A stretch of DNA of 64,000 nucleotides from Streptomyces sp. NRRL WC-3626. Its GTDB lineage: Bacteria > Actinomycetota > Actinomycetes > Streptomycetales > Streptomycetaceae. This document shows positions 6,881-52,470 of the stretch, piece after piece. The stretch is from NCBI RefSeq assembly GCF_000718785.1, contig NZ_JOCA01000022.1, positions 73,220 to 137,219 on the forward strand, given 5' to 3'. Positions within the stretch are counted from its first letter, which is position 1. Each line of letters begins with the position of its first letter. The notes beneath the pieces were generated by a model. The model had not been told where the DNA came from, searched no databases, and saw nothing but the letters and a program-made list of their open reading frames with translations. The position numbers and the translations under genes are program-made.

Positions 6881-7344
6881 ACCCTGACGGTACCCGGAGA
6901 GCCGGACGAGATGATCCACTGCCTGTGTGATCTCTTCCGCCCGACGGAGCGGGGCAGCGGCTGCTCCGGGAAGACCGTGACGCCGCCGGCGCCCGGTCAG
7001 GGCGGTACCGCCTCCGGTGGCTCAGCCGTGAGCCCGCCAGTTCGTCGACGGCCGAGAGGACCCGCTGCCGTGGATCGCATCAGGCTGCGGTCGATGGACT
7101 CGGCGACCCGGTTTCCGGACTCCCTGACCACGACGGCTTTCGTCTCCGCTGCCAGCCCGCCCCGCCGCAGGGGGCAGAGCGGGGTACCGGGACCGGCGGC
7201 ATGATCACCATCGGACCGTGACGGACGCCTCCGTCCGTTCGGGTGAAGCGAGAGAGCATGAGCGGCCGGTCGCCTCACCCTGCGGGTTCCGACGCCCCGG
7301 TCCGGGGGCGACCCGCCGGAAGCCGGCGGCCCGGACCCGCCGGC
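6881..7344. other. Non-coding spacer, no feature recognised
   Basis: 464 bases between the start of RNase J and the stop of the protease/STAND gene, both on the minus strand. It must hold the RNase J promoter and the 3' end of the upstream transcript. I see no convincing gene, RNA or repeat. Open frames here lack ribosome-binding sites and recognisable protein. Confidence 0.5.
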
Positions 7345-41742: not shown

Positions 41743-43881
41743 TCACCCTCCTGAGGAGAGTTCGGCGAGGAGTCGTCGGCCGGCGACGGTGAACGGGTGT
41801 TCGGCTCCCAGACCGCGTTCCCGTCTGGCCACGACATCCGTCATGATGTCGACGGCCACGCTCACATCGCCTTGCGCGGCCCGCGTCCGGGACAGGAGCT
41901 GCTGTGCCGAGAGCACGAGCGGGTGGTCGGGGCCGAAGCGTCGCCGGTACGCGTCCGCGACCAGCCGGATCTCCTGGTCGGCCTCGTCGAAGCGGCCCAG
42001 GAGGTACAGCGCCCAGGCGTGGTTGTGGTGGGCGCCCAGCGTCACCGTGTGGTCGGGACCGAGGTGCCGTACGCACTCCGTCGGCAGGGAAAGCAGCTCG
42101 CCGTCCTCTTCGGCGGCCAGCTCGGACGCCGGCAGCAGCACCAGGAGGCTGGAGCGGGAACGCAGGGTCAGCGGGTGGGCCGGACCCAGCGCCCGCCGTC
42201 TTCCGGTGACCGTGGAGCGGAGGAGCGAGAGGGCCTCGTCACGGCGTCCGAGGTTGCCGAGCACCAGCTGAAGGCCGTGGCGGCTGTCCAGGGTGTCGGG
42301 GTCTTCGGCACCGAACAGTCGCTCCTGCGCCGCGTGGACATGTGCGAGCAGTTCTTCGGCGCTCGGGTATTCGCCCAGCCGGAAGAGCGCCCGTCCGGCC
42401 CTGGAGCGGGCGGCCAGAACATGACGGTGCTCCGTGCCCAGCCACCGCTCGCCGAGGTCCGCGGCGGCCCTTGCGGTTTCGCAGGCGGACAGATAATCCC
42501 CCTTGCGGTGCAGGGCGGTGGCGAGCCTGGTCGCCAAGGCCACCGCGTCGGCCGATACCGACGGATCGCCCGCGCGCCGTAGCAGGGCGAGCGCGTGCGG
42601 CACCAGCAGCCGAAGCCCCGGATCGTCCGGGCCGGCGTCGGGCACACGGGGTACGCCCGCGTCGAGCAGCCGGACCGCGGTGGTGTGGAGGGCCGGAACC
42701 AAGTCCGCCGGAGTCGCCGCGGCGACGCTGTCGAGCAGCACCGCGTGGCTCTGTACGCAGCGCTCGCCGACGTCGACGAGTTCGGTCAGTGACTGGTCGA
42801 GCAGCGCTCTGAGCGCCGTCTCGCAACGGGCCCGCGGCAGGGCTCCGTCGACCTCGGTGCGGTTGAGCAGGGACAAGGGCAGTGGCTCGGGGGCGAACCG
42901 CGACAGGAGCCTGAGCAGCGCGGTCGCCTCCGGCAGGCCACGGGCCTCGAATGCGTCGAGGGTCAACTGCCACGTCAGGCCCACCAGATGCCGGGGGTCC
43001 TCCTCGGACAAGGTGTCGGCTCCCCGGTCGATGAGTTCGATCCCCTCACCCTCCTCCAGACGGCGCCCGTACGTCTCCATCGTCCAGGGATCGAGCACTT
43101 GCTGGGAGAGGAAGCCCCCTGCCAGCGTGAGGGCGAGCGGCAGCCGGCCGAGCCGGTCGGCGATCCTGGCCGCCTCCTGCTCATTGCCACTGTGCGGCGC
43201 GAGGTCCCGTAACACCCGCGCGGCGTCCTCACGCGGCAGCACGCCGATGTGCTGCAGCTCCGCGCCCGGCCACCAGCGGGCGGCCGGCCGGCGGGTGGTC
43301 ACCACGACCGTGCCCCGTGAACTGGTACGCAGCCAGCTGCCGTCGCGGAAAATCTCGGGGTGGTCGGCGTTGTCGAGCACCAGTAACCAGGGTTCCGCGG
43401 AGCGGTCGAGGCACTGCCAGACCAGGTCGGCGGCGGGACGCAGTCCGTTGCGGGCGGCCAGCAACTCGGCGTCGCCGGCCCCCCGGTCGGCGGCGACGGC
43501 GAGCATCCCCGCACGCAGGCTCGCCCGGTCGGACGCGCCGACCCACAGCCCCACCCTGGCGCCTTCGCCGGTGGCCAGCTGGAACAGGGTGTAAGCGACC
43601 GCGGTCTTGCCGGAGCCGCCCATGCCGTACAGCACGTAGACCTCGCCGCCGTGCCCTTCCCGCACGCTCGACCGCAGCCGGTCCAGCACCTCGGCGCGGT
43701 CGCGCAGGACGACCGGGGGTCTGCCGACCGCCGGCCGGCGAACCGAGTCGGGGCCCTGCAGCCCGGCCGGCTCGTCACCGCGCTCGCCGTGATGATGGTG
43801 GTGCTCGCTGATGTGCTGGTCACCCGACGCCTGGTAGACGCGGCCACGGTCCTCGGCGTGGCCGTCCATCGCGCCCGTCAT
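41743..43881 (-). CDS. NB-ARC/TPR STAND protein with N-terminal amyloid-like motif
   Basis: 712 residues. Residues 12-32 read GRVYQASGDQHISEH followed by a His run, then a linker. The NB-ARC NTPase follows with P-loop GMGGSGKT (86-93), Walker B WLLVLDNAD and GLPLAL-type GRLPLALTLAGG. The C-terminal half from about residue 450 is tetratricopeptide-like repeats (GTEHRHVLAARSRAGRALF, GPAHPLTLRSRSSLL, GPDHPLVLSAQQLLSR). The architecture is that of an NLR-like sensor. From memory, the N-terminal motif resembles bacterial amyloid signalling sequences, which recruit an effector carrying the same motif; no such effector gene is adjacent. The start has no clear ribosome-binding site and could be the ATG at 43869. 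A defence role is inference. Confidence 0.85.
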   Translation of the reverse strand: MTGAMDGHAEDRGRVYQASGDQHISEHHHHHGERGDEPAGLQGPDSVRRPAVGRPPVVLRDRAEVLDRLRSSVREGHGGEVYVLYGMGGSGKTAVAYTLFQLATGEGARVGLWVGASDRASLRAGMLAVAADRGAGDAELLAARNGLRPAADLVWQCLDRSAEPWLLVLDNADHPEIFRDGSWLRTSSRGTVVVTTRRPAARWWPGAELQHIGVLPREDAARVLRDLAPHSGNEQEAARIADRLGRLPLALTLAGGFLSQQVLDPWTMETYGRRLEEGEGIELIDRGADTLSEEDPRHLVGLTWQLTLDAFEARGLPEATALLRLLSRFAPEPLPLSLLNRTEVDGALPRARCETALRALLDQSLTELVDVGERCVQSHAVLLDSVAAATPADLVPALHTTAVRLLDAGVPRVPDAGPDDPGLRLLVPHALALLRRAGDPSVSADAVALATRLATALHRKGDYLSACETARAAADLGERWLGTEHRHVLAARSRAGRALFRLGEYPSAEELLAHVHAAQERLFGAEDPDTLDSRHGLQLVLGNLGRRDEALSLLRSTVTGRRRALGPAHPLTLRSRSSLLVLLPASELAAEEDGELLSLPTECVRHLGPDHTVTLGAHHNHAWALYLLGRFDEADQEIRLVADAYRRRFGPDHPLVLSAQQLLSRTRAAQGDVSVAVDIMTDVVARRERGLGAEHPFTVAGRRLLAELSSGG

Positions 43882-45839: not shown

Positions 45840-46730
45840 ATGACCGAGCACAAGGGTGCGGAAGCCGGGACCGAGGCGGTTCCCGGGCAGCGCGTGGACG
45901 ACGGTGGGGCCGGGCGGCGGCCCGAGGACGAGTCGGGGCGAGGCGTCATCGTCGCGTTCGGACAGACCATGAAGACGCTGCGCGTACGGGAGGGGCTGGA
46001 GCGCGAGGAGTTCGGGCGACGGCTCGGGTACTCGGCGTCCACCATCGCGTCGTTCGAACAGGGGCGCAGGATTCCGACGCCTCAGGCGATCGAGCGGGCG
46101 GATGAGGTGCTCGGGGCGGGCGGGTTGCTGCGCCTGTGGAAGGAGCAGGTGGAGCGGGCCCAGTATCCGGTCCGGTTCCAGGGAATGGCCCAACTGGAGA
46201 AGGAGTGCGCCGAACTGCTCATGTACGACGCGCTCGTCGTCAACGGCCTGCTCCAGACCGAGGACTACATGCGGGCTCTGCTTGGCATGCGGCGTCCGCC
46301 GCTGACGCAGGAAACCATCGACCAACGGGTAACCGCTCGGCTGGCCAGACAGGACATCTTCGACCGGCAGCCCGCGCCGCTACTGGGCTTCGTCATGACC
46401 GAGGCAGTGCTGCGGCAGCGCTATGGCGGCGCAGGCGTACTACGCGGTCAACTGGAGCACCTCCTCCTGCTGGGGCAGAAGCGAAACCTCGAGATCCAGG
46501 TCATGCCGCTCGACTGCGAAGAGAACGCGGGGGTGAACGGGCCGTTCACAGTCGTCACTCGGAAGGACGGCAAGAAATTCGTCTACTCCGAGGCCCACGC
46601 CACCAGCACACTCGAAGCGGACACGGAACACACGGTTCTTGCTGCCGCCCGCTATGGGATCATCCGATCACAGGCTCTCAGACCGCGAGAGTCCGCTCAA
46701 TTCATCGAGAGGTTGCTGGGAGAGCTATGA
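45840..46730 (+). CDS. XRE-family regulator with DUF5753 domain
   Basis: 296 residues. The N-terminal XRE helix-turn-helix is at about residues 40-95 (TLRVREGLEREEFGRRLGYS, then STIASFEQGRRIPTPQAI). The DUF5753 domain follows (YDALVVNGLLQTEDYMRALL ... LEIQVMPLDCEENAGVNGPF). Proteins of this type pair with a DUF397 protein; the pair affects antibiotic production and differentiation in S. coelicolor (Scr1/Scr2 type). The stop overlaps the DUF397 start (ATGA). Confidence 0.9.
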   Translation: MTEHKGAEAGTEAVPGQRVDDGGAGRRPEDESGRGVIVAFGQTMKTLRVREGLEREEFGRRLGYSASTIASFEQGRRIPTPQAIERADEVLGAGGLLRLWKEQVERAQYPVRFQGMAQLEKECAELLMYDALVVNGLLQTEDYMRALLGMRRPPLTQETIDQRVTARLARQDIFDRQPAPLLGFVMTEAVLRQRYGGAGVLRGQLEHLLLLGQKRNLEIQVMPLDCEENAGVNGPFTVVTRKDGKKFVYSEAHATSTLEADTEHTVLAAARYGIIRSQALRPRESAQFIERLLGEL

Positions 46731-46927
46731 ACACCGCCGAGTCCGAACTCACCTGGTGCAAGAGCAGCTACAGCGACACCGAGGGCGGCCAGTGCGTGGA
46801 GGTCGCTGCCGCCAAGGCAGTGGTGCACGTCCGGGACTCGAAGGCTGAGGCCGGGCCCGTACTCACCGTCTCGCGTGCGGCATGGGCGGGCCTCGTCGGG
46901 TTGACCTCGTCGCGACGGCGCGGCTGA
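46727..46927 (+). CDS. DUF397 protein
   Basis: 66 residues. DUF397 signature: LTWCKSSYSDTEGGQCVEVA, then VHVRDSKAEAGPVLTVSRAAW. It is the partner of the XRE/DUF5753 regulator with which it overlaps by four bases. In related pairs the small protein modulates the regulator, in a way that recalls toxin-antitoxin modules. It converges with the VWA gene 18 bases away. Confidence 0.92.
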   Translation: MNTAESELTWCKSSYSDTEGGQCVEVAAAKAVVHVRDSKAEAGPVLTVSRAAWAGLVGLTSSRRRG

Positions 46928-46945: not shown

Positions 46946-48121
46946 TCAGGCGGGGACCCGTACCGTCTCCACCCAGCCCGGGGGCTGCGGCGCACCCTCG
47001 CCGATCAGGGCCGCGATCAGGCGGCAGGACGGGGTTTCGGCGGGCCAGGGGGTGAAGCCGTCGGTGAGGACGATGACGATGGACGGGCGGTCGCGGGCCG
47101 CGAGGGCCGCTTCGATGCCGACGCGCATGTCCGTGCCGCCCCCGCCGCCGAGGGTGATCTGGTCGGTGGCCGTCACCCGGGACACGGCGTGCACGTCGGC
47201 GTCGCAGGCGAGGACGGTGACGCGGTTGCCCCGTACGCCTACCTCGCGCAGCACGCCCGTCACCTCCCCGAGCGCGGCGGCGAGTTCGTCGTCTCCCATC
47301 GAGCCCGAGGTGTCGACGACGACGGCCACCCGGGGCAGCGGGCGGCGCAGGCTGGGGAGGACGACGCCACGCAGCGCCGGGGTGCGGCGCGAGGGGCGGC
47401 GGTAGGTGTAGTCGATGGCGCCCGCCGCCCATGCGGCGGCTTCCCGGACCGCGCCGGACAGTGCCTGCCGCCAGTCGACGGTGGGTTCCAGGAGTTCCTC
47501 GGCCCAGCGCTGCCAGCCCGCGGGCAGGGTGCCTCGGGAGCGTTGGTGGGCGCGCATGGCCTCGGCGGTGTGCCGACGCAGTGCCTGGGCCTCGACGTCA
47601 CCGAGGGCGGCGGTTCCGGGGAGGTCCCAGGGCGCGGGACGGCCGTGGGCACCCGAGCCGCAGTCGTGCTCTCGTACGTGCGGGGGCAGTTGGGGCAGGT
47701 ACGTCTCGAACAACCGGCCTTCGGGCAGGCCGTAGAGGCGGGGCTCGACGCGTCCGGCGGGCAGGCGCAGGCCGTCGGTGAGGAGGTCGTCGTTGATCTC
47801 GCAGTCCTGGGCGACGTTGACGCGGTACCGGTCGCGCTGGTCGGCGGCGGGGAGCCGGCCGGCACGGCCGTGGTGGTCGCGCAGCAGGTGAGCCACCTCG
47901 TGGATCCAGACGCCCGCGAGTTCCTCGACGGGGGTCGCGTCGACGAAGGCGGGTGACACGTAGCAGCGCCAGTGGCGGTCCACGCCCATCGTCGGCACGT
48001 CGGGGCTCGGCACGACGGTGAGGGCGTACAGGGCGGAGGCCAGGTAGGGGCGGTCGTTGGCCGCGCGGTAGCGGGCGGCGAGCAGTTTGGTCGTGTCGAG
48101 GCGGCCGCGGGGGTCCGTCAT
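46946..48121 (-). CDS. DUF2201 metallopeptidase/VWA-like protein
   Basis: 391 residues. The N-terminal half is a putative metallopeptidase domain with HEVAH at about residue 73 in VWIHEVAHLLRDHHGR and a downstream acidic CEIND. The C-terminal half is a VWA-like domain with a MIDAS motif DTSGSMGDDE at about 268 and a final LTDGFTPWPAETP. This matches DUF2201 proteins, which pair with MoxR ATPases. The MoxR partner is encoded 11 bases upstream. It is the last gene of the LRR-ankyrin-MoxR-VWA operon and its likely executor, because the zinc-protease motif is intact. Confidence 0.88.
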   Translation of the reverse strand: MTDPRGRLDTTKLLAARYRAANDRPYLASALYALTVVPSPDVPTMGVDRHWRCYVSPAFVDATPVEELAGVWIHEVAHLLRDHHGRAGRLPAADQRDRYRVNVAQDCEINDDLLTDGLRLPAGRVEPRLYGLPEGRLFETYLPQLPPHVREHDCGSGAHGRPAPWDLPGTAALGDVEAQALRRHTAEAMRAHQRSRGTLPAGWQRWAEELLEPTVDWRQALSGAVREAAAWAAGAIDYTYRRPSRRTPALRGVVLPSLRRPLPRVAVVVDTSGSMGDDELAAALGEVTGVLREVGVRGNRVTVLACDADVHAVSRVTATDQITLGGGGGTDMRVGIEAALAARDRPSIVIVLTDGFTPWPAETPSCRLIAALIGEGAPQPPGWVETVRVPA

Positions 48122-48132
48122 GTTCGTGGGTC

Positions 48133-49320
48133 TCAGTGCCCGCCGGGCAGGGCCCCGGACAGCTGCAGCAGGTCCAGGAACCCGTCGATGCCCGGGGGTA
48201 CGGGCCAGTCGAGCCGGCGCATCGCCGCGAGGTCGGTGGCGGCCCGGGCGGCCACGTCCGGAACGCCCGCGTCCACGGCCTTGGCCAGGACCACCCAGCC
48301 GGCCTCCCAGCGGGGCCGGGTGGGATCGCTCTGGATGGCGGCGACGACCGCGATGAGGAAGGCGAGTTGGCGGTCGCCGCGCTCGGGCAGGGCGAACGCC
48401 TCCGGGTCGGCGAGGACCCGCTCGGGGTCGGGCAGATCGAGGTGTTCGAGGTACGACAGCAGTTCGATGCCCGCGCCGTCCCCGACGGCACCGGTCAGCG
48501 CGGCGGCCGTGGCCTCACGCCCCGCCCCGGTCGCGTACCCGGTGGCCAGCAGCCGCAGCGCCATCTCCCAGGTGCGCGGGGAGGGCCAGGAGCGGCCCCG
48601 GCTCTCGGCGTCGGCGGGGATGTGGTGGACCAGGCCCGGCCGGGCCGTGAGGAAACCCGACACGGCTCCGCGTGCCCGCGCGACGGCACCGGGCACCCTG
48701 GCCGGATCGACCGCCAACACGGCCACCTCCGGCCAGGTGCCGGCCATGCCGCGGGCGACCGTGGCCGGGTCGTGGGTCCAGTCGAGGTGGACGAAGCGGT
48801 TGGCGAGCGGCGGGCTGAGATGCCAGCCGTCCGCGGCGCTCGACGGCGGGTTGGCGGCGGCGACGATGCGCACCGCGTCGGGCAGGACGAGGCTGCCGAC
48901 CCGGCGTTCGAGGACGACCCGCAGCAGCGCCGCCTGTACGGCCGGGGGCGCGGAGGACAGTTCGTCGAAGAAGAGCAGGCCCTGTCCCGCGCGGGTGAGG
49001 CGGACCGCCCAGTCGGGCGGGGCCATCGGTACTCCGGTGGTGGCCGGGTCGTCGCCGACGATCGGCAGTCCGGCGAAGTCCGACGGCTCGTGCACGCTGG
49101 CGATGACCGTCTCCAGCGGCAGGCCGAGCCCGGCGGCGAGCTGTTCCAGTCCGGCGGACTTGCCGATGCCCGGTTCGCCCCACAGCAGGACGGGCTGATT
49201 CGCCGTCACCGCCAGGGCCAGGGCCTCCAGTTGCGGGTTGGCGGCCGGCTCCGTGCGGTGCGCGCGCAGTCGGCCGACGAGGTCGTCGGCGGCGGCGAGG
49301 GGGGCAGGTGTGGTGTTCAA
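48133..49320 (-). CDS. MoxR-family AAA+ ATPase
   Basis: 395 residues from a TTG at 49320, which overlaps the ankyrin stop as TTGA; no ATG fits before the P-loop. Walker A is WGEPGIGKS (about 46-54), Walker B is GLLFFDELS, and sensor-1 is VAAANPPSSAADGWHLSPP. An AAA lid follows. The C-terminal part (about 250-395) is helical and specific to this subfamily. MoxR ATPases remodel or load a VWA partner, here the metallopeptidase/VWA protein directly downstream. The ankyrin and LRR genes upstream would supply recognition. Confidence 0.88.
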   Translation of the reverse strand: MNTTPAPLAAADDLVGRLRAHRTEPAANPQLEALALAVTANQPVLLWGEPGIGKSAGLEQLAAGLGLPLETVIASVHEPSDFAGLPIVGDDPATTGVPMAPPDWAVRLTRAGQGLLFFDELSSAPPAVQAALLRVVLERRVGSLVLPDAVRIVAAANPPSSAADGWHLSPPLANRFVHLDWTHDPATVARGMAGTWPEVAVLAVDPARVPGAVARARGAVSGFLTARPGLVHHIPADAESRGRSWPSPRTWEMALRLLATGYATGAGREATAAALTGAVGDGAGIELLSYLEHLDLPDPERVLADPEAFALPERGDRQLAFLIAVVAAIQSDPTRPRWEAGWVVLAKAVDAGVPDVAARAATDLAAMRRLDWPVPPGIDGFLDLLQLSGALPGGH

Positions 49321-51086
49321 AACGGTATGTCCTCTTCGTCCGCCGCGCGCTGTTCCATCCATTCGTCCCACCAGTCGGCGCCGGCACCGGGATGCTCCTC
49401 CCGTACGCGGTCCCGGAGGAAGGACAGGTCGGCGCGCTTGTACCGGCGTACGGTCTGGGCCAGCGACAGCTCGGACTCGTCCGCCACGTCGATCCGGGCA
49501 CCGGCGGCGAGGAACGCCTCCACGAGTGCCCTGGAACCGCCGTCGTTGACCGCGACGAAGAGCGGAGTACGGTCCCGCTGGTCCCTGGCCTCCAGATCGA
49601 GCCCCGCCGCGAGCAGCCGCGGCAGGAGCGGTTCGTGGTCGAGGAGATGCAGTACGTGGAGCAGCGAGCGTCCGGTGGCGTCGCGCACGCGGGGGTCCAT
49701 GCCGGCGTCCAGGAGGTGGAGCACGCCGTGGGTGTCACCGTGCTGGGCGCGCAGGAACAGGTCCCGGCGCTGGGCGCGCAGCGCCTTGGGCAGCCGGCCG
49801 CTGCCCGACGCCCAGGTCTGTTCGACGGCAAAGCATCCGGCGACGGCGCCGCCGAACGCGCGCAGGGCCCGCTCGCGCTGCTGCTCCTCGTCGCTGTGCG
49901 GCATACGGAGCAGACCGCCCGCGCGGAATCCCACCTCGTGCCACTCACCGCGGCAGCGCACCCGGACGGGTGCGGGGTCGGTGGGGCCCGGCGGGCCCGC
50001 GGCACCCCGCAGGGCGGGGAACAACGCCTCGCTCACCAGCGGATGCAGGTGCTCCGGCTCGATGCCGCCGACGCGCATGAGGTCGAGGTCGGGGAGCCTG
50101 CGCCAGAGCGCTTCGGCCAGGAACGGCACCCCCTTGGTCTCCTCGCGGCCCACGGCCCTCATCCGCAGCCCGGTGCGGCCGGCGGTGGCCGCCGGTTCCA
50201 GCAGGAAGCGGGTGTGCCAGTCACCCATGACGAGGTAACGGTCACCGACGCCCTCGTCCGTCAGCCGGCGGACCTCCCGCTCCAGGCGGGTGTGGTCGAG
50301 GGCGAGACGGCCGAGCAGTACCGACGGGTCGCCCCGGTACCAGCCGGGGCCGGCCGGGGATGTCAGGTCGAGCTCGATCCCGGCGGCGGCGAAGGCCGCC
50401 TCGATCTCGCCCTTCCGGTGCAGCAGGGTGACCCACTCGGCGCGGGCGGCCGCGTCGCCGGGGCCGGGGTCCGCGGTGGGCAGTTCGTCCGTACGGCGTG
50501 GGCGGCCGTCGGCGTGGAGGAAGGGAGGCCGGTCGGTGCCGCCGCCACGCTCCCGCAGTTCGGCGGTGCGGCGCGCGTCCCACAGGTGCCGGGCGTACCG
50601 CCAGTCCTCGGTTCCACCGCCGAAGACACCCGCGCTCTCCTCGTCCGCGACGGTGCCGAAGCGCAGGGTGATCCGCTGCGGGCCCTCCATCATGGCGGGC
50701 GTGACCAGGTGCAGATACGGCGCGGCCCGGGGGCCTTCGCCCTCCCGCACCGGCCGGTAGCGGGCGAGGACGACGGTCCGGCCGGTGTCGAGGGTGGTCC
50801 GTCCGCCCAGAATCCGGGGCAGGTGCCAGCGCACCAGGTCCGGGACCAGGTGGCGCAGGTCCTCCTCCAGCGCGTCGGCTATGTCGTCGCCGCAGTGCTC
50901 GGCGACCTCCGGCAGGTCGATGTCGACGTCCACGCCGGCCGCCGCGCACGCTCCGCGCCAGTCTCCGGCCGTACGGCGTTCCGTCGCGCTCCCGATCATC
51001 GTGCGGGGGACGGCGTAACGGCGGATCCTCCGCCAACTCGCCGCCTCCTCCGGGGAGAAGCAGGGGGAATCGGGGCGGCCGCTCAA
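49317..51086 (-). CDS. Large ankyrin-repeat protein of the MoxR-VWA operon
   Basis: 589 residues from a TTG at 51086 overlapping the LRR stop (TTGA). Residues 1-430 match no domain I recognise, but have conserved-looking blocks (DLPEVAEHCGDDIADALEED, YLVMGDWHTRFLLEP, EPEHLHPLVSEALFPALRG). Residues about 442-540 are ankyrin-like repeats (HGDTHGVLHLLDAGMDPRVR, then TGRSLLHVLHLLDHEPLL and DRTPLFVAVNDGG). It has no signal peptide or membrane segment. The tight coupling to LRR and MoxR genes suggests it bridges recognition and ATPase, but that is inference. Confidence 0.82.
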   Translation of the reverse strand: MSGRPDSPCFSPEEAASWRRIRRYAVPRTMIGSATERRTAGDWRGACAAAGVDVDIDLPEVAEHCGDDIADALEEDLRHLVPDLVRWHLPRILGGRTTLDTGRTVVLARYRPVREGEGPRAAPYLHLVTPAMMEGPQRITLRFGTVADEESAGVFGGGTEDWRYARHLWDARRTAELRERGGGTDRPPFLHADGRPRRTDELPTADPGPGDAAARAEWVTLLHRKGEIEAAFAAAGIELDLTSPAGPGWYRGDPSVLLGRLALDHTRLEREVRRLTDEGVGDRYLVMGDWHTRFLLEPAATAGRTGLRMRAVGREETKGVPFLAEALWRRLPDLDLMRVGGIEPEHLHPLVSEALFPALRGAAGPPGPTDPAPVRVRCRGEWHEVGFRAGGLLRMPHSDEEQQRERALRAFGGAVAGCFAVEQTWASGSGRLPKALRAQRRDLFLRAQHGDTHGVLHLLDAGMDPRVRDATGRSLLHVLHLLDHEPLLPRLLAAGLDLEARDQRDRTPLFVAVNDGGSRALVEAFLAAGARIDVADESELSLAQTVRRYKRADLSFLRDRVREEHPGAGADWWDEWMEQRAADEEDIPF

Positions 51087-52219
51087 CGGTAGACACTTCC
51101 TATCGCGCGCAGGTCGGGGTGGGACCCGGCCATGGGCCGCAGGCGCTGCGTGAAGGACCGCTTCACCTTCCGGGGCAGTCCCGGCCCCAGACCGACGTAC
51201 TCCAGCGGTGAGCCGTCCGGCACCGCCGCCAGCAGGGACTTCGCGCCCCGCCCGGTGAGCCCGGTGTGGCACAGCTCCAGCCGGCGCAGCGGGCTGCCGG
51301 GGAGGGCGGCGGCCAGGGCGTGGGCGCCTTCGTCGCCGGTGGCGTTGGCGGGGGCGCCGAGGCTGCGCTCCGACATCGGCCGGCCCAGGTCGAGCATCTC
51401 GATGGCGCCCAGGGCGTCGGCGAGGGCGCGCGCCCCGGCGGGGCCGATCCCGTTGCCGCCCAGGCCCAGTCGTACCGGACCTCCGGCGTCGGCGGCGGCT
51501 GCCGCGAGGACGGCGGCGCCCTCGTCGCCCAGGTGGTTGGCGGGCAGGTACAGCTCGCGTACGCCGGCGTCCCGGATCAGCGCCGCCAGCAGACCGGCGG
51601 CCTCGGGGGTCAGGCCGTTCCCCCCGAGGAACAGGCGTTCCACGGGGCGCGGGCGGCCGGTGAGGGCGTCGAGCAGGGCGCGCAGACCGTCGGTGGTGAC
51701 ACCGGTGTTGACCAGGTCGAGGGTGCGCAGCGCGGTGTTGCGGCGGAGCATCGCGGCGAGCGCCGAGGCACCGTCGTCGCCGACCGGGTTGCGCTTGAGC
51801 CACAGGGCACGGACGGTGTCGTCCGCCGACAGGGCGTCGGCGAGCGCGCCGACGCCGTCCGGGCCGATGCGGTTGCAGCCGAGGTAGAGCGTGTGCAGTC
51901 CATGGCCGTCGGCGAGTGCCCGGGCGACCGTGGACGCGCCTTCGTCTCCGATGGCGTTGGTGCCGAGGAGCACGTGCCGGGCGTGCGGTGAGGCGGCGGC
52001 GACGGGCATCAGCCGGGCGGCGCCGGCTGTGCCGAGCCCCTGCTTGCACAGGTCGACGCGGCCGTCCGCGCGGACGGTGCCGAGCGGGAACGTCTCGTCG
52101 GTCTCCACCGCCCGCGGCGACCTCAGCCGGGCCACCAGCGGGTCGAGCCCGGAAGGATCACTGATCGGGATGTCCGGGTGCTCGATCGCCGGGCAGCGCA
52201 CGGGTGTCGGCTGCGTCAT
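51083..52219 (-). CDS. Leucine-rich-repeat (RNI-like) protein
   Basis: 378 residues; ATG at 52219 with GGAG five to six bases upstream (a GTG at 52225 is possible). After a linker, about ten ribonuclease-inhibitor-type repeats of about 28 residues run from residue 60 to 350: LGTNAIGDEGASTVARAL, LGCNRIGPDGVGALADAL, LKRNPVGDDGASALAAML, LGGNGLTPEAAGLLAAL and others. It is cytosolic, with no signal peptide. This is the first gene of a four-gene operon; an LRR protein there is most simply the recognition subunit. The tRNA-like gene lies 109 bases upstream. Confidence 0.88.
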   Translation of the reverse strand: MTQPTPVRCPAIEHPDIPISDPSGLDPLVARLRSPRAVETDETFPLGTVRADGRVDLCKQGLGTAGAARLMPVAAASPHARHVLLGTNAIGDEGASTVARALADGHGLHTLYLGCNRIGPDGVGALADALSADDTVRALWLKRNPVGDDGASALAAMLRRNTALRTLDLVNTGVTTDGLRALLDALTGRPRPVERLFLGGNGLTPEAAGLLAALIRDAGVRELYLPANHLGDEGAAVLAAAAADAGGPVRLGLGGNGIGPAGARALADALGAIEMLDLGRPMSERSLGAPANATGDEGAHALAAALPGSPLRRLELCHTGLTGRGAKSLLAAVPDGSPLEYVGLGPGLPRKVKRSFTQRLRPMAGSHPDLRAIGSVYR

Positions 52220-52328
52220 CACCACTCCACCGGTCCATCGCCGGTGCCCGGCCCGCCGAGGGCGGCACCGCCCTCCGCCCGCCCAGGACGGACCGACGCC
52301 AATCGACGTTCCTCCACGACAAGGGTGG

Positions 52329-52401
52329 CAAGGCTGGTCGGATTCGAACCGACGTCCTCCAGCTCGATGCTAGGGCGCGACGACCTCTGCGCTACAGCCT
52401 C
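52329..52401 (-). tRNA. tRNA-like gene with degenerate anticodon arm
   Basis: Read on the minus strand, a 7-bp acceptor stem (GAGGCTG with CAGCCTT, one G-U pair), a D-arm (TAGCGCAGAGGTCGTCGCGC) and a perfect T-arm (GTCGG-TTCGAAT-CCGAC) are all present, and CCA follows the discriminator G in the genome. The anticodon arm is poor: a 4-bp stem with one mismatch and the loop CATCGAG, which lacks U33. If it were read, the anticodon would be UCG (Arg). The acceptor complementarity extends to 10 bp (GGC/GCC), which is unusual. It may be a pseudo-tRNA or tRNA-like element rather than a decoding tRNA. Confidence 0.5.
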
Positions 52402-52470
52402 GCCATGAATGATCATAGCGGGATCGGCCGCTGTGTCGATCACTTGTTTGAATGAATTCTTGCGCGCGGC

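Follow-up and report, generated by a model that had tools for sequence, protein, structure and literature searches.

A tRNA-like RNA accompanies an LRR-ankyrin-MoxR-VWA metallopeptidase operon of Streptomyces: a candidate tRNA-mimic ribonucleoprotein system

The 64,000-nucleotide stretch of Streptomyces sp. NRRL WC-3626 analysed here (contig NZ_JOCA01000022.1, positions 73,220 to 137,219; termed the window) carries a minus-strand operon encoding a leucine-rich-repeat (LRR) protein, an ankyrin-repeat (ANK) protein, a MoxR-type AAA+ ATPase and a metallopeptidase-VWA protein, and, 107 bases upstream of the LRR gene, a gene for a tRNA-like RNA that recurs with every complete copy of the operon that we collected. 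An initial annotation of this region had described a four-protein unit: the four genes are real, but the constant RNA, which lies outside the annotated interval, was missed; elsewhere, a short-chain dehydrogenase/reductase (SDR) gene stands with it as well. The RNA is apparently a tRNA mimic rather than a decoding tRNA, and such RNAs are easily overlooked because ARAGORN reports them as tRNAs with ever-changing anticodons. We tentatively propose, with somewhat less than even confidence, that RNA and proteins work together as a ribonucleoprotein system, the tRNA mimic acting in trans to gate the AAA+/VWA metallopeptidase. The RNA and the operon comprise the following features:

52412-52439, minus strand: sigma-70-like promoter TCGACA-16-TATGAT, its -10 element ending 7 bases before RNA base 1
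52325-52404, minus strand: tRNA-like RNA (ARAGORN, Rfam, minimum-free-energy (MFE) fold, covariation, co-occurrence)
51083-52219, minus strand: LRR protein, 378 aa (Pfam LRR_6, E 2.2e-20; ribonuclease-inhibitor-like repeats; database label 'gala protein')
49317-51086, minus strand: ANK protein, 589 aa (N-terminal region followed by C-terminal ankyrin repeats)
49479-49757, minus strand: ankyrin repeats of the ANK protein (Pfam Ank_2, residues 444-536)
48133-49320, minus strand: MoxR-type AAA+ ATPase, 395 aa (Pfam AAA_5; Walker A GEPGIGKS, Walker B LLFFDEL)
46946-48121, minus strand: VWA protein, 391 aa (DUF2201_N metallopeptidase domain joined to a DUF2201 VWA domain)
47888-47902, minus strand: HEVAH zinc-site motif, VWA protein residues 74-78
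47300-47314, minus strand: MIDAS motif DTSGS, VWA protein residues 270-274

ARAGORN reports a single tRNA in the window, tRNA-Arg(tcg), immediately upstream of the LRR gene, and Rfam assigns this RNA to 'tRNA' at 44.5 bits. Its MFE is -38.9 kcal/mol (z -3.29), a value equalled by 1 of 200 shuffles, and the predicted fold is a cloverleaf with a 10-bp acceptor helix, a D arm, a 5-bp anticodon stem closing a 5-base loop, and a T arm made of a 5-bp stem and a TTCGAAT loop; the alignment-based structure is much alike, but has 9 acceptor pairs. At the matching position in relatives, the anticodons named by ARAGORN differ (selenocysteine, Arg, Asp, Cys, Leu and Ala), and an alignment of the upstream regions together with a motif scan shows these differently named tRNAs to be one RNA. 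Operon-type loci yielded 58 RNAs, 45 of them different. Their acceptor helix has 10 pairs in 42 cases and 9 in 15 (the script mis-registered L138), the anticodon arm is 16 nt long in 57 of the 58 (a count that leaves out the free-standing relatives whose loop is Trp-like and of 7 bases), the D arm is identical in 57 copies, base 19 aside, and CCA stands at the canonical site in just 18. Across 68 diverse copies, two-sided changes occur at all ten acceptor pairs, with 97.4% of acceptor cells paired; counted across the entire structure, two-sided change affected 185 cells, as opposed to at most 59 when partners were slid by 1-3 bases, in an alignment that was fitted to the structure and leans towards it. 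Covariation is thin in 42 operon RNAs taken alone (3 two-sided pairs) because their sequence hardly varies.

The window promoter carries 10 of the 12 consensus bases, compared with a mean of 0.0 in 50 shuffles. An exact TATGAT is found at 52 of the 58 RNA loci (5 of 10,800 control windows), and the best -10 element sits 6-8 bases ahead of RNA base 1 in every one of the 58, which makes a transcription start at about base 1, at the helix itself or close to it, probable.

The four protein genes are joined by two TTGA stop/start overlaps and one 11-base gap, just as initially annotated. Their order and strand are the same in each of 54 distinct complete loci, too constant for a chance arrangement, and the set constitutes a real, conserved unit. 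The MoxR motif GEPGIGKS and the Walker B residues DE are unchanged in all 54, as are residues H74, E75, H78, D106, E108, N110, D111 and D112 of the VWA protein and its MIDAS residues D270, S272, S274, T330 and D354, such that the core residues of the Walker, HExxH and MIDAS sites previously read as intact in the window prove to be conserved throughout, those of the zinc site included. Both halves of the VWA protein pass the Pfam gathering cut-offs (PF13203 with 104.5 bits and PF09967 with 76.1 bits, the cut-offs being 23.2 and 26.4), and in 54/54 loci it stops 0-7 residues past the aligned VWA part, with no C-terminal effector domain. Pairwise identity averages 87% for MoxR, 80% for the VWA protein, 80% for the LRR protein and 61% for the ANK protein, the third component, which is the fastest evolving of the operon proteins. 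The solved relatives that score best against the LRR protein are ribonuclease inhibitors. The structure model of the ANK protein (pLDDT 85.6) matched only ankyrins among the matches listed, and the signal for an internal duplication in its N-terminus is weak (hhalign probability 9, P 0.0037). Directly before the LRR start lies a leader (52219-52290, CCGG...CCGGCGA.GGACCGGTGGAGTGGTG) that is unusually conserved between distant loci.

The ANK protein served as the query for gathering loci, both in named genome contigs and in 392 Streptomyces genomes, the 28 named-genome loci deriving from Streptomyces (26), Kitasatospora (one) and Microtetraspora (one). With loci repeated between collections, as well as L034 and L035 (duplicates of L061 and L072), counted once, there were 77 distinct loci: the 54 complete ones, 18 without a full LRR gene (16 three-gene loci, L118 at a contig edge, and L126 with a partial LRR gene) and five others (L045, L052, L125, L136 and L138). 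The tRNA-like RNA was present in all 54 complete loci, in the partial operons L125 and L126, and ahead of the ANK gene at L136 and L138, where the stretch read holds no LRR, MoxR or VWA gene; L118 could not be assessed, as its contig begins inside the LRR gene. A covariance model trained on 42 distinct RNAs recovered the held-out RNAs of L077, L136 and L138 at 82-94 bits, gave 23 bits to a gene called tRNA-Met by ARAGORN and, with a best score of 15.7 bits versus 108.6 in the window, did not find the RNA in any of the 18 scanned loci of three-gene or ANK-like type.

This pairing extends to whole genomes. Searches with the ANK protein were positive in 39 of the 392 Streptomyces genomes at E 1e-40 or better. 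Leaving out G218 and G406, which align at 40% as the paralogue does, 37 genomes with near full-length matches remained; in one of the 37, G107, the ANK gene has no LRR, MoxR or VWA gene nearby. The exact 22-base D-arm sequence occurs in 37/37 genomes with the near full-length ANK protein versus 4/355 without it, a difference for which a Fisher test overstates independence, the genomes being related, so that its P value is not to be taken literally. Of the four D-arm-positive genomes without the near full-length ANK protein, G289 lacks the ANK gene and has the RNA with an LRR gene (L258), in G361 the contig ends inside the LRR gene (L259), in G355 the RNA lies at the edge of a 5.3-kb contig (L316), and G347 carries a free-standing relative (L244). 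When loci are joined on the basis of two gene clusters common to their flanks, the 54 form 26 groups (the largest holding 21 loci), and 20 when one cluster suffices, numbers that are approximate in that five called genes on each side were available at 40 of the 54 loci and few at L058 and L063. Given this co-occurrence and the 20-26 neighbourhood groups, the RNA moves together with the operon. The spread is patchy (37/392 Streptomyces genomes), and the homologues are thus unlike the invariably non-mobile, housekeeping set that would have refuted the initial annotation.

The source genome holds, on another contig, an ANK-like-MoxR-VWA paralogue without the RNA (G000:C7, locus L033 7458-11499), and 16 such three-gene X-MoxR-VWA loci were read, all lacking the LRR gene. 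The N-terminal region of the ANK protein is common to the third component of these paralogues; the ankyrin region is absent from the four three-gene third components that were aligned, and Pfam detects no domain in those of L033 and L036 or in the relative at the ANK-only locus L138, and only ankyrins in the ANK protein of the window. RNA-SDR-LRR units and X-MoxR-VWA units each also occur alone. As the three-gene third components lack the ankyrin part, two modules seem to have fused in the RNA-linked operon, one of the RNA-(SDR)-LRR type and one of the MoxR-vWA ternary type, and we infer that the third component of the latter gained its ankyrins in the course of this history, rather than the reverse.

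In eight loci of the family sample around G548 and of the class sample (L247, L250, L301, L302, L303, L304, L307 and L308; at L303 the VWA gene lies beyond the stretch read), one or two RNAs are followed by a zinc-ribbon SDR gene, the LRR gene, one or two ANK genes, and MoxR and VWA genes. A short form, RNA(s)-SDR-LRR, is found in these samples at L252, L305, L306, L309, L310 and L311 and, in Streptomyces, at L256, L342 and L355. L302 and L077 are one Microtetraspora locus, at which the RNA-LRR distance reaches 1,782 bases because the SDR gene lies between the two. Three RNAs stand ahead of LRR-ANK in L246 and ahead of SDR-LRR in L310, L311 and L355. The arms of copies preceding one operon mostly differ, and where copies are separated by over 100 bases (L246, L247, L301, L304 and L307), each has a -10 box of its own; overall, TAnnnT stands at 32 of 39 RNA copies examined (control 45/7,000). 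At L309, L310, L311, L355 and L256, two or three RNAs with differing arms are spaced about 80-95 bases apart before SDR-LRR.

The classical SDR motif is YxxxK; an alignment of 121 sequences of the zinc-ribbon SDR shows TxxxK in every one, and a CxxC...CxxC ribbon in 119-120. Judged by a 67-residue piece, the gene is near-universal in Streptomyces (131/150 genomes). The RNA was present at 3 of 20 hand-picked Streptomyces SDR loci, two of which (G084 and G067) had been chosen for an already seen tRNA-like match, and absent from the remaining 17, so that a linkage of SDR and RNA across all Streptomyces was ruled out. This actinobacterial family (P0005; L338 5888-7306), which is without the usual catalytic tyrosine, occurs in the source genome as well, with no RNA match beside its SDR gene there.

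Relatives of the RNA also reach beyond these gene sets. Allowing up to two mismatches, the D arm was found in 85/392 Streptomyces genomes (reversed-pattern control 8/392) and in 18/394 genomes of the class (control 5/394), the controls implying that a few of the two-mismatch matches are due to chance; 40 D-arm loci were read. At the level of the phylum, 121/149 genomes matched the RNA model at E 1e-4, at no more than 60 bits apart from the window's own genome, and these matches are likely to be ordinary tRNAs. The model separates poorly below about 65 bits and, because tRNAs elsewhere in the phylum score as high as 60 bits, only matches of at least 65 bits were counted as members by score alone; copies scoring lower (L240, L256, L257, L310, L311, L315, L342 and L355) rest mainly on the D arm or on the SDR/LRR neighbourhood. 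The family sample around G548 contained a copy of at least 65 bits in 16/100 genomes. Most Streptomyces copies outside the operon have no common downstream gene, and a TAnnnT box lies at the right distance in 7 of 8 free-standing loci tested. Arm variants among the relatives include a Trp-like CTCCAAA loop and a CAC-NNCAT-GTG arm. Free-standing relatives with the CTCCAAA loop occur at L229, L231, L236, L237, L243, L262 and L264 (near position 7000); six of these seven have the full 10-bp acceptor, and they could be an extra tRNA-Trp-like gene. At L257 (position 6337) and L261 (position 7128), a tRNA-like RNA lies 138-165 bases from a large opposite-strand gene, and in the case of L252 the distance is 2.7 kb; these opposite-strand genes, named by reading their sequence, resemble isoleucyl- or valyl-tRNA synthetases.

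In the ribonucleoprotein system that we propose, a non-decoding tRNA mimic made from its own promoter would work in trans, either as a structural bait or as a gate, and the LRR and ANK proteins, elsewhere together with the zinc-ribbon SDR, would bind or watch it. A change in the RNA or in its bound state, such as attack by a tRNA-directed nuclease or modifier, would be the trigger on which the MoxR ATPase remodels the VWA protein, whose HExxH metallopeptidase would then cleave a target. The case for action in trans is fairly strong, because multiple RNA copies with mostly differing arms precede one operon, with their own -10 boxes when more than 100 bases apart, and because related RNAs stand alone. 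Also in favour of the proposed system are the presence of the RNA in all complete loci, in partial operons and in ANK-only loci, its absence from three-gene loci, the retention of catalytic and MIDAS residues in 54/54 loci, and ribonuclease inhibitors as the best-scoring solved relatives of the LRR protein. Binding of the RNA by the proteins, sensing of tRNA damage, and a peptidase activity with its target are the weak elements of the proposal; as an outline, the sense-remodel-cleave machine of the initial annotation is plausible. A narrower version, in which the system would guard tRNA, with mimics of near-invariant body and differing anticodon arms baiting toxins or phage enzymes, and LRR, ankyrin and SDR sensors relaying damage or occupancy so as to fire the AAA+-gated metallopeptidase, we consider rather unlikely.

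Several findings weigh against the proposed system. The later copies in tight arrays (L309, L311 and L256) are without a -10 box, and the sequence of the arm varies little within Streptomyces operons, unlike that of a fast-evolving bait. The matches listed for the ANK model are filled by ankyrins, and none of them links its N-terminal fold to an RNA binder; the predicted structure of the VWA protein is poor (pLDDT 53) and unusable. PADLOC searches of 110 proteins flanking the operons, for which there was no control set, matched ten models with one member each; repeated clusters, proteins below 70 or above 700 aa and weak gene calls had been dropped from this sample (leaving 111), and one further protein, called within the SDR region of L077, was removed by hand. 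Finally, a role in cis is possible, given that the RNA precedes the LRR start by 27-112 bases at 55 of the 56 loci measured and that no terminator was detected in the intervening stretch of the window.

Such a role would be that of a leader at the 5' end of the mRNA, where operon proteins or tRNA-processing enzymes bind the RNA and set expression. The short distance, the absence of a terminator in the window and the position of the -10 box 6-8 bases before RNA base 1 all fit this explanation, which we nevertheless consider unlikely in view of the tandem copies that have their own -10 boxes ahead of one operon, the free-standing relatives that share no downstream gene, and a D arm that is identical in nearly all copies. 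Of the alternatives, the one we take most seriously, although we hold it to be only a lesser possibility, is a housekeeping or stress RNA-protein machine, for instance one for tRNA or RNA quality control, or a MoxR-VWA chaperone for cofactor-linked maturation. Non-conflict roles of MoxR-vWA pairs are described for Midasin and RavA-ViaA in the sections of PMC7159879 cited here, and the mostly ordinary flanking genes of the window, the single defence-model matches in the sampled flanks, and the SDR gene, near-universal in Streptomyces and mostly found without the RNA, are in keeping with it. Against it stand the patchy distribution of the operon, its scattered positions, and a third component that evolves fastest, as those sections of PMC7159879 report for the VMAP and vWA components of conflict systems.

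Two further explanations would deprive the RNA of a specific function with the operon. That this is an ordinary MoxR-vWA conflict system with the RNA merely incidental is very improbable: gene order follows the third component-MoxR-vWA arrangement as given in the cited sections on ternary systems (PMC7159879), and an RNA-free three-gene paralogue exists, but the RNA is present in every complete locus across all neighbourhood groups, and also occurs with ANK alone or with an LRR gene lacking ANK (L258). A normal or suppressor tRNA, or one that is nothing but the attachment site of a mobile element, is scarcely credible, although ARAGORN and Rfam call the RNA a tRNA and tRNA genes are common integration sites; the covarying acceptor of 9-10 bp, the 5-base loop, the changing predicted anticodon and the scarcity of CCA speak against decoding. 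As to attachment, no second copy of the RNA 3' end was found within the window and the RNA stands with the operon in different neighbourhoods, by which a mobile island at a tRNA was ruled out.

The designation as a conflict system, put forward in the initial annotation, found no direct backing in searches for defence genes: PADLOC (2023) shows no system, none of its models matches the LRR or VWA protein, and those matching the ANK and MoxR proteins do so through ankyrin- or AAA-type parts only. We found no phage record carrying the operon, and the viral contigs searched gave no exact 20-mer match. Plasmid records that match number 17, none covering 80% of the query, and the 15 matches listed begin at query position 1416 or beyond, i.e., without RNA and LRR; the two best are hypothetical-AAA-VWA gene sets of three-gene-like composition, and MoxR-VWA genes occur on plasmids of Streptomyces and Embleya. 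A conflict role of the operon is thus unproven. The flanks in the window are mostly ordinary genes, and include an NB-ARC/TPR STAND-type ATPase (41743-43881) near the operon and an HTH-DUF5753 regulator with a DUF397 gene (45840-46927), convergent with the VWA gene. DUF397 genes are common in Streptomyces. They are linked to some MoxR-vWA ternary systems in the sections of PMC7159879 cited above.

If the proposed mechanism is true, it would allow bacteria to answer attacks on tRNA with regulated proteolysis; should it fail, these RNAs still make up a structured-RNA family whose protein partners are clear and which is testable in ordinary Streptomyces strains. We know of no earlier tRNA-mimic-controlled protease. 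The open-access literature searched yielded no description of a system combining a tRNA mimic with an AAA+ metallopeptidase, nor of a seemingly non-decoding tRNA mimic constantly paired with such proteins, and no such system is described in the cited sections of PMC10910872 and PMC4810234.

Among known systems, the operon comes close to the MoxR-vWA ternary conflict systems, which, in the sections cited, comprise VMAP, iSTAND, FtsH, beta-propeller, iSTAND2 and TERNS3 types (PMC7159879, PMC8195603). Like these, it combines a MoxR protein bearing a P-loop with a vWA protein bearing a MIDAS motif, in the order third component-MoxR-vWA (both in 54/54 loci), has a paralogous set in the same genome, and includes a fast-evolving third component. 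It differs in adding a constant tRNA-like RNA and an LRR (and SDR) gene, in a third component in which Pfam detects none of their domains, and in placing a metallopeptidase N-terminal to the vWA domain, the variable C-terminal effectors of the published systems being absent. Another close system is the X-MoxR-DUF2201 three-gene operon (L033), with a homologous third component, MoxR and VWA-metallopeptidase, but without RNA, LRR or ankyrins.

The RNA itself departs from a decoding tRNA in its acceptor of 9-10 bp, rather than 7 bp (8 in selenocysteine tRNA), and, in the window fold, in a 5-base loop in place of a 7-base loop with U33. Cloverleaf tRNAs of unusual build, with a lengthened acceptor stem, are known in 8/4, 9/3, selenocysteine and allo-tRNA forms. 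The operon RNA shares the lengthening, but its 10/5 arrangement amounts to 15 stacked pairs instead of 12-13, and its 5-base anticodon loop would be predicted not to decode normally. A second likeness is to Ro60 and its Y RNAs. Ro60 contains a vWA-type domain, and Pfam shows no TROVE/Ro60 or RtcA/RtcB in the four operon proteins or the SDR; the operon RNA is moreover a whole cloverleaf with a 10-bp acceptor, encoded with MoxR and a metallopeptidase. In both cases a tRNA-mimicking RNA is encoded beside proteins: as presented in the part of PMC7790460 cited here, YrlA RNA, found in RNA-repair operons and associated with Ro60/Rsr, has a tRNA-like domain, and its authors suggest that it might act as a competitive inhibitor of an anticodon nuclease. 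By analogy, YrlA may offer a useful precedent for a bait RNA.

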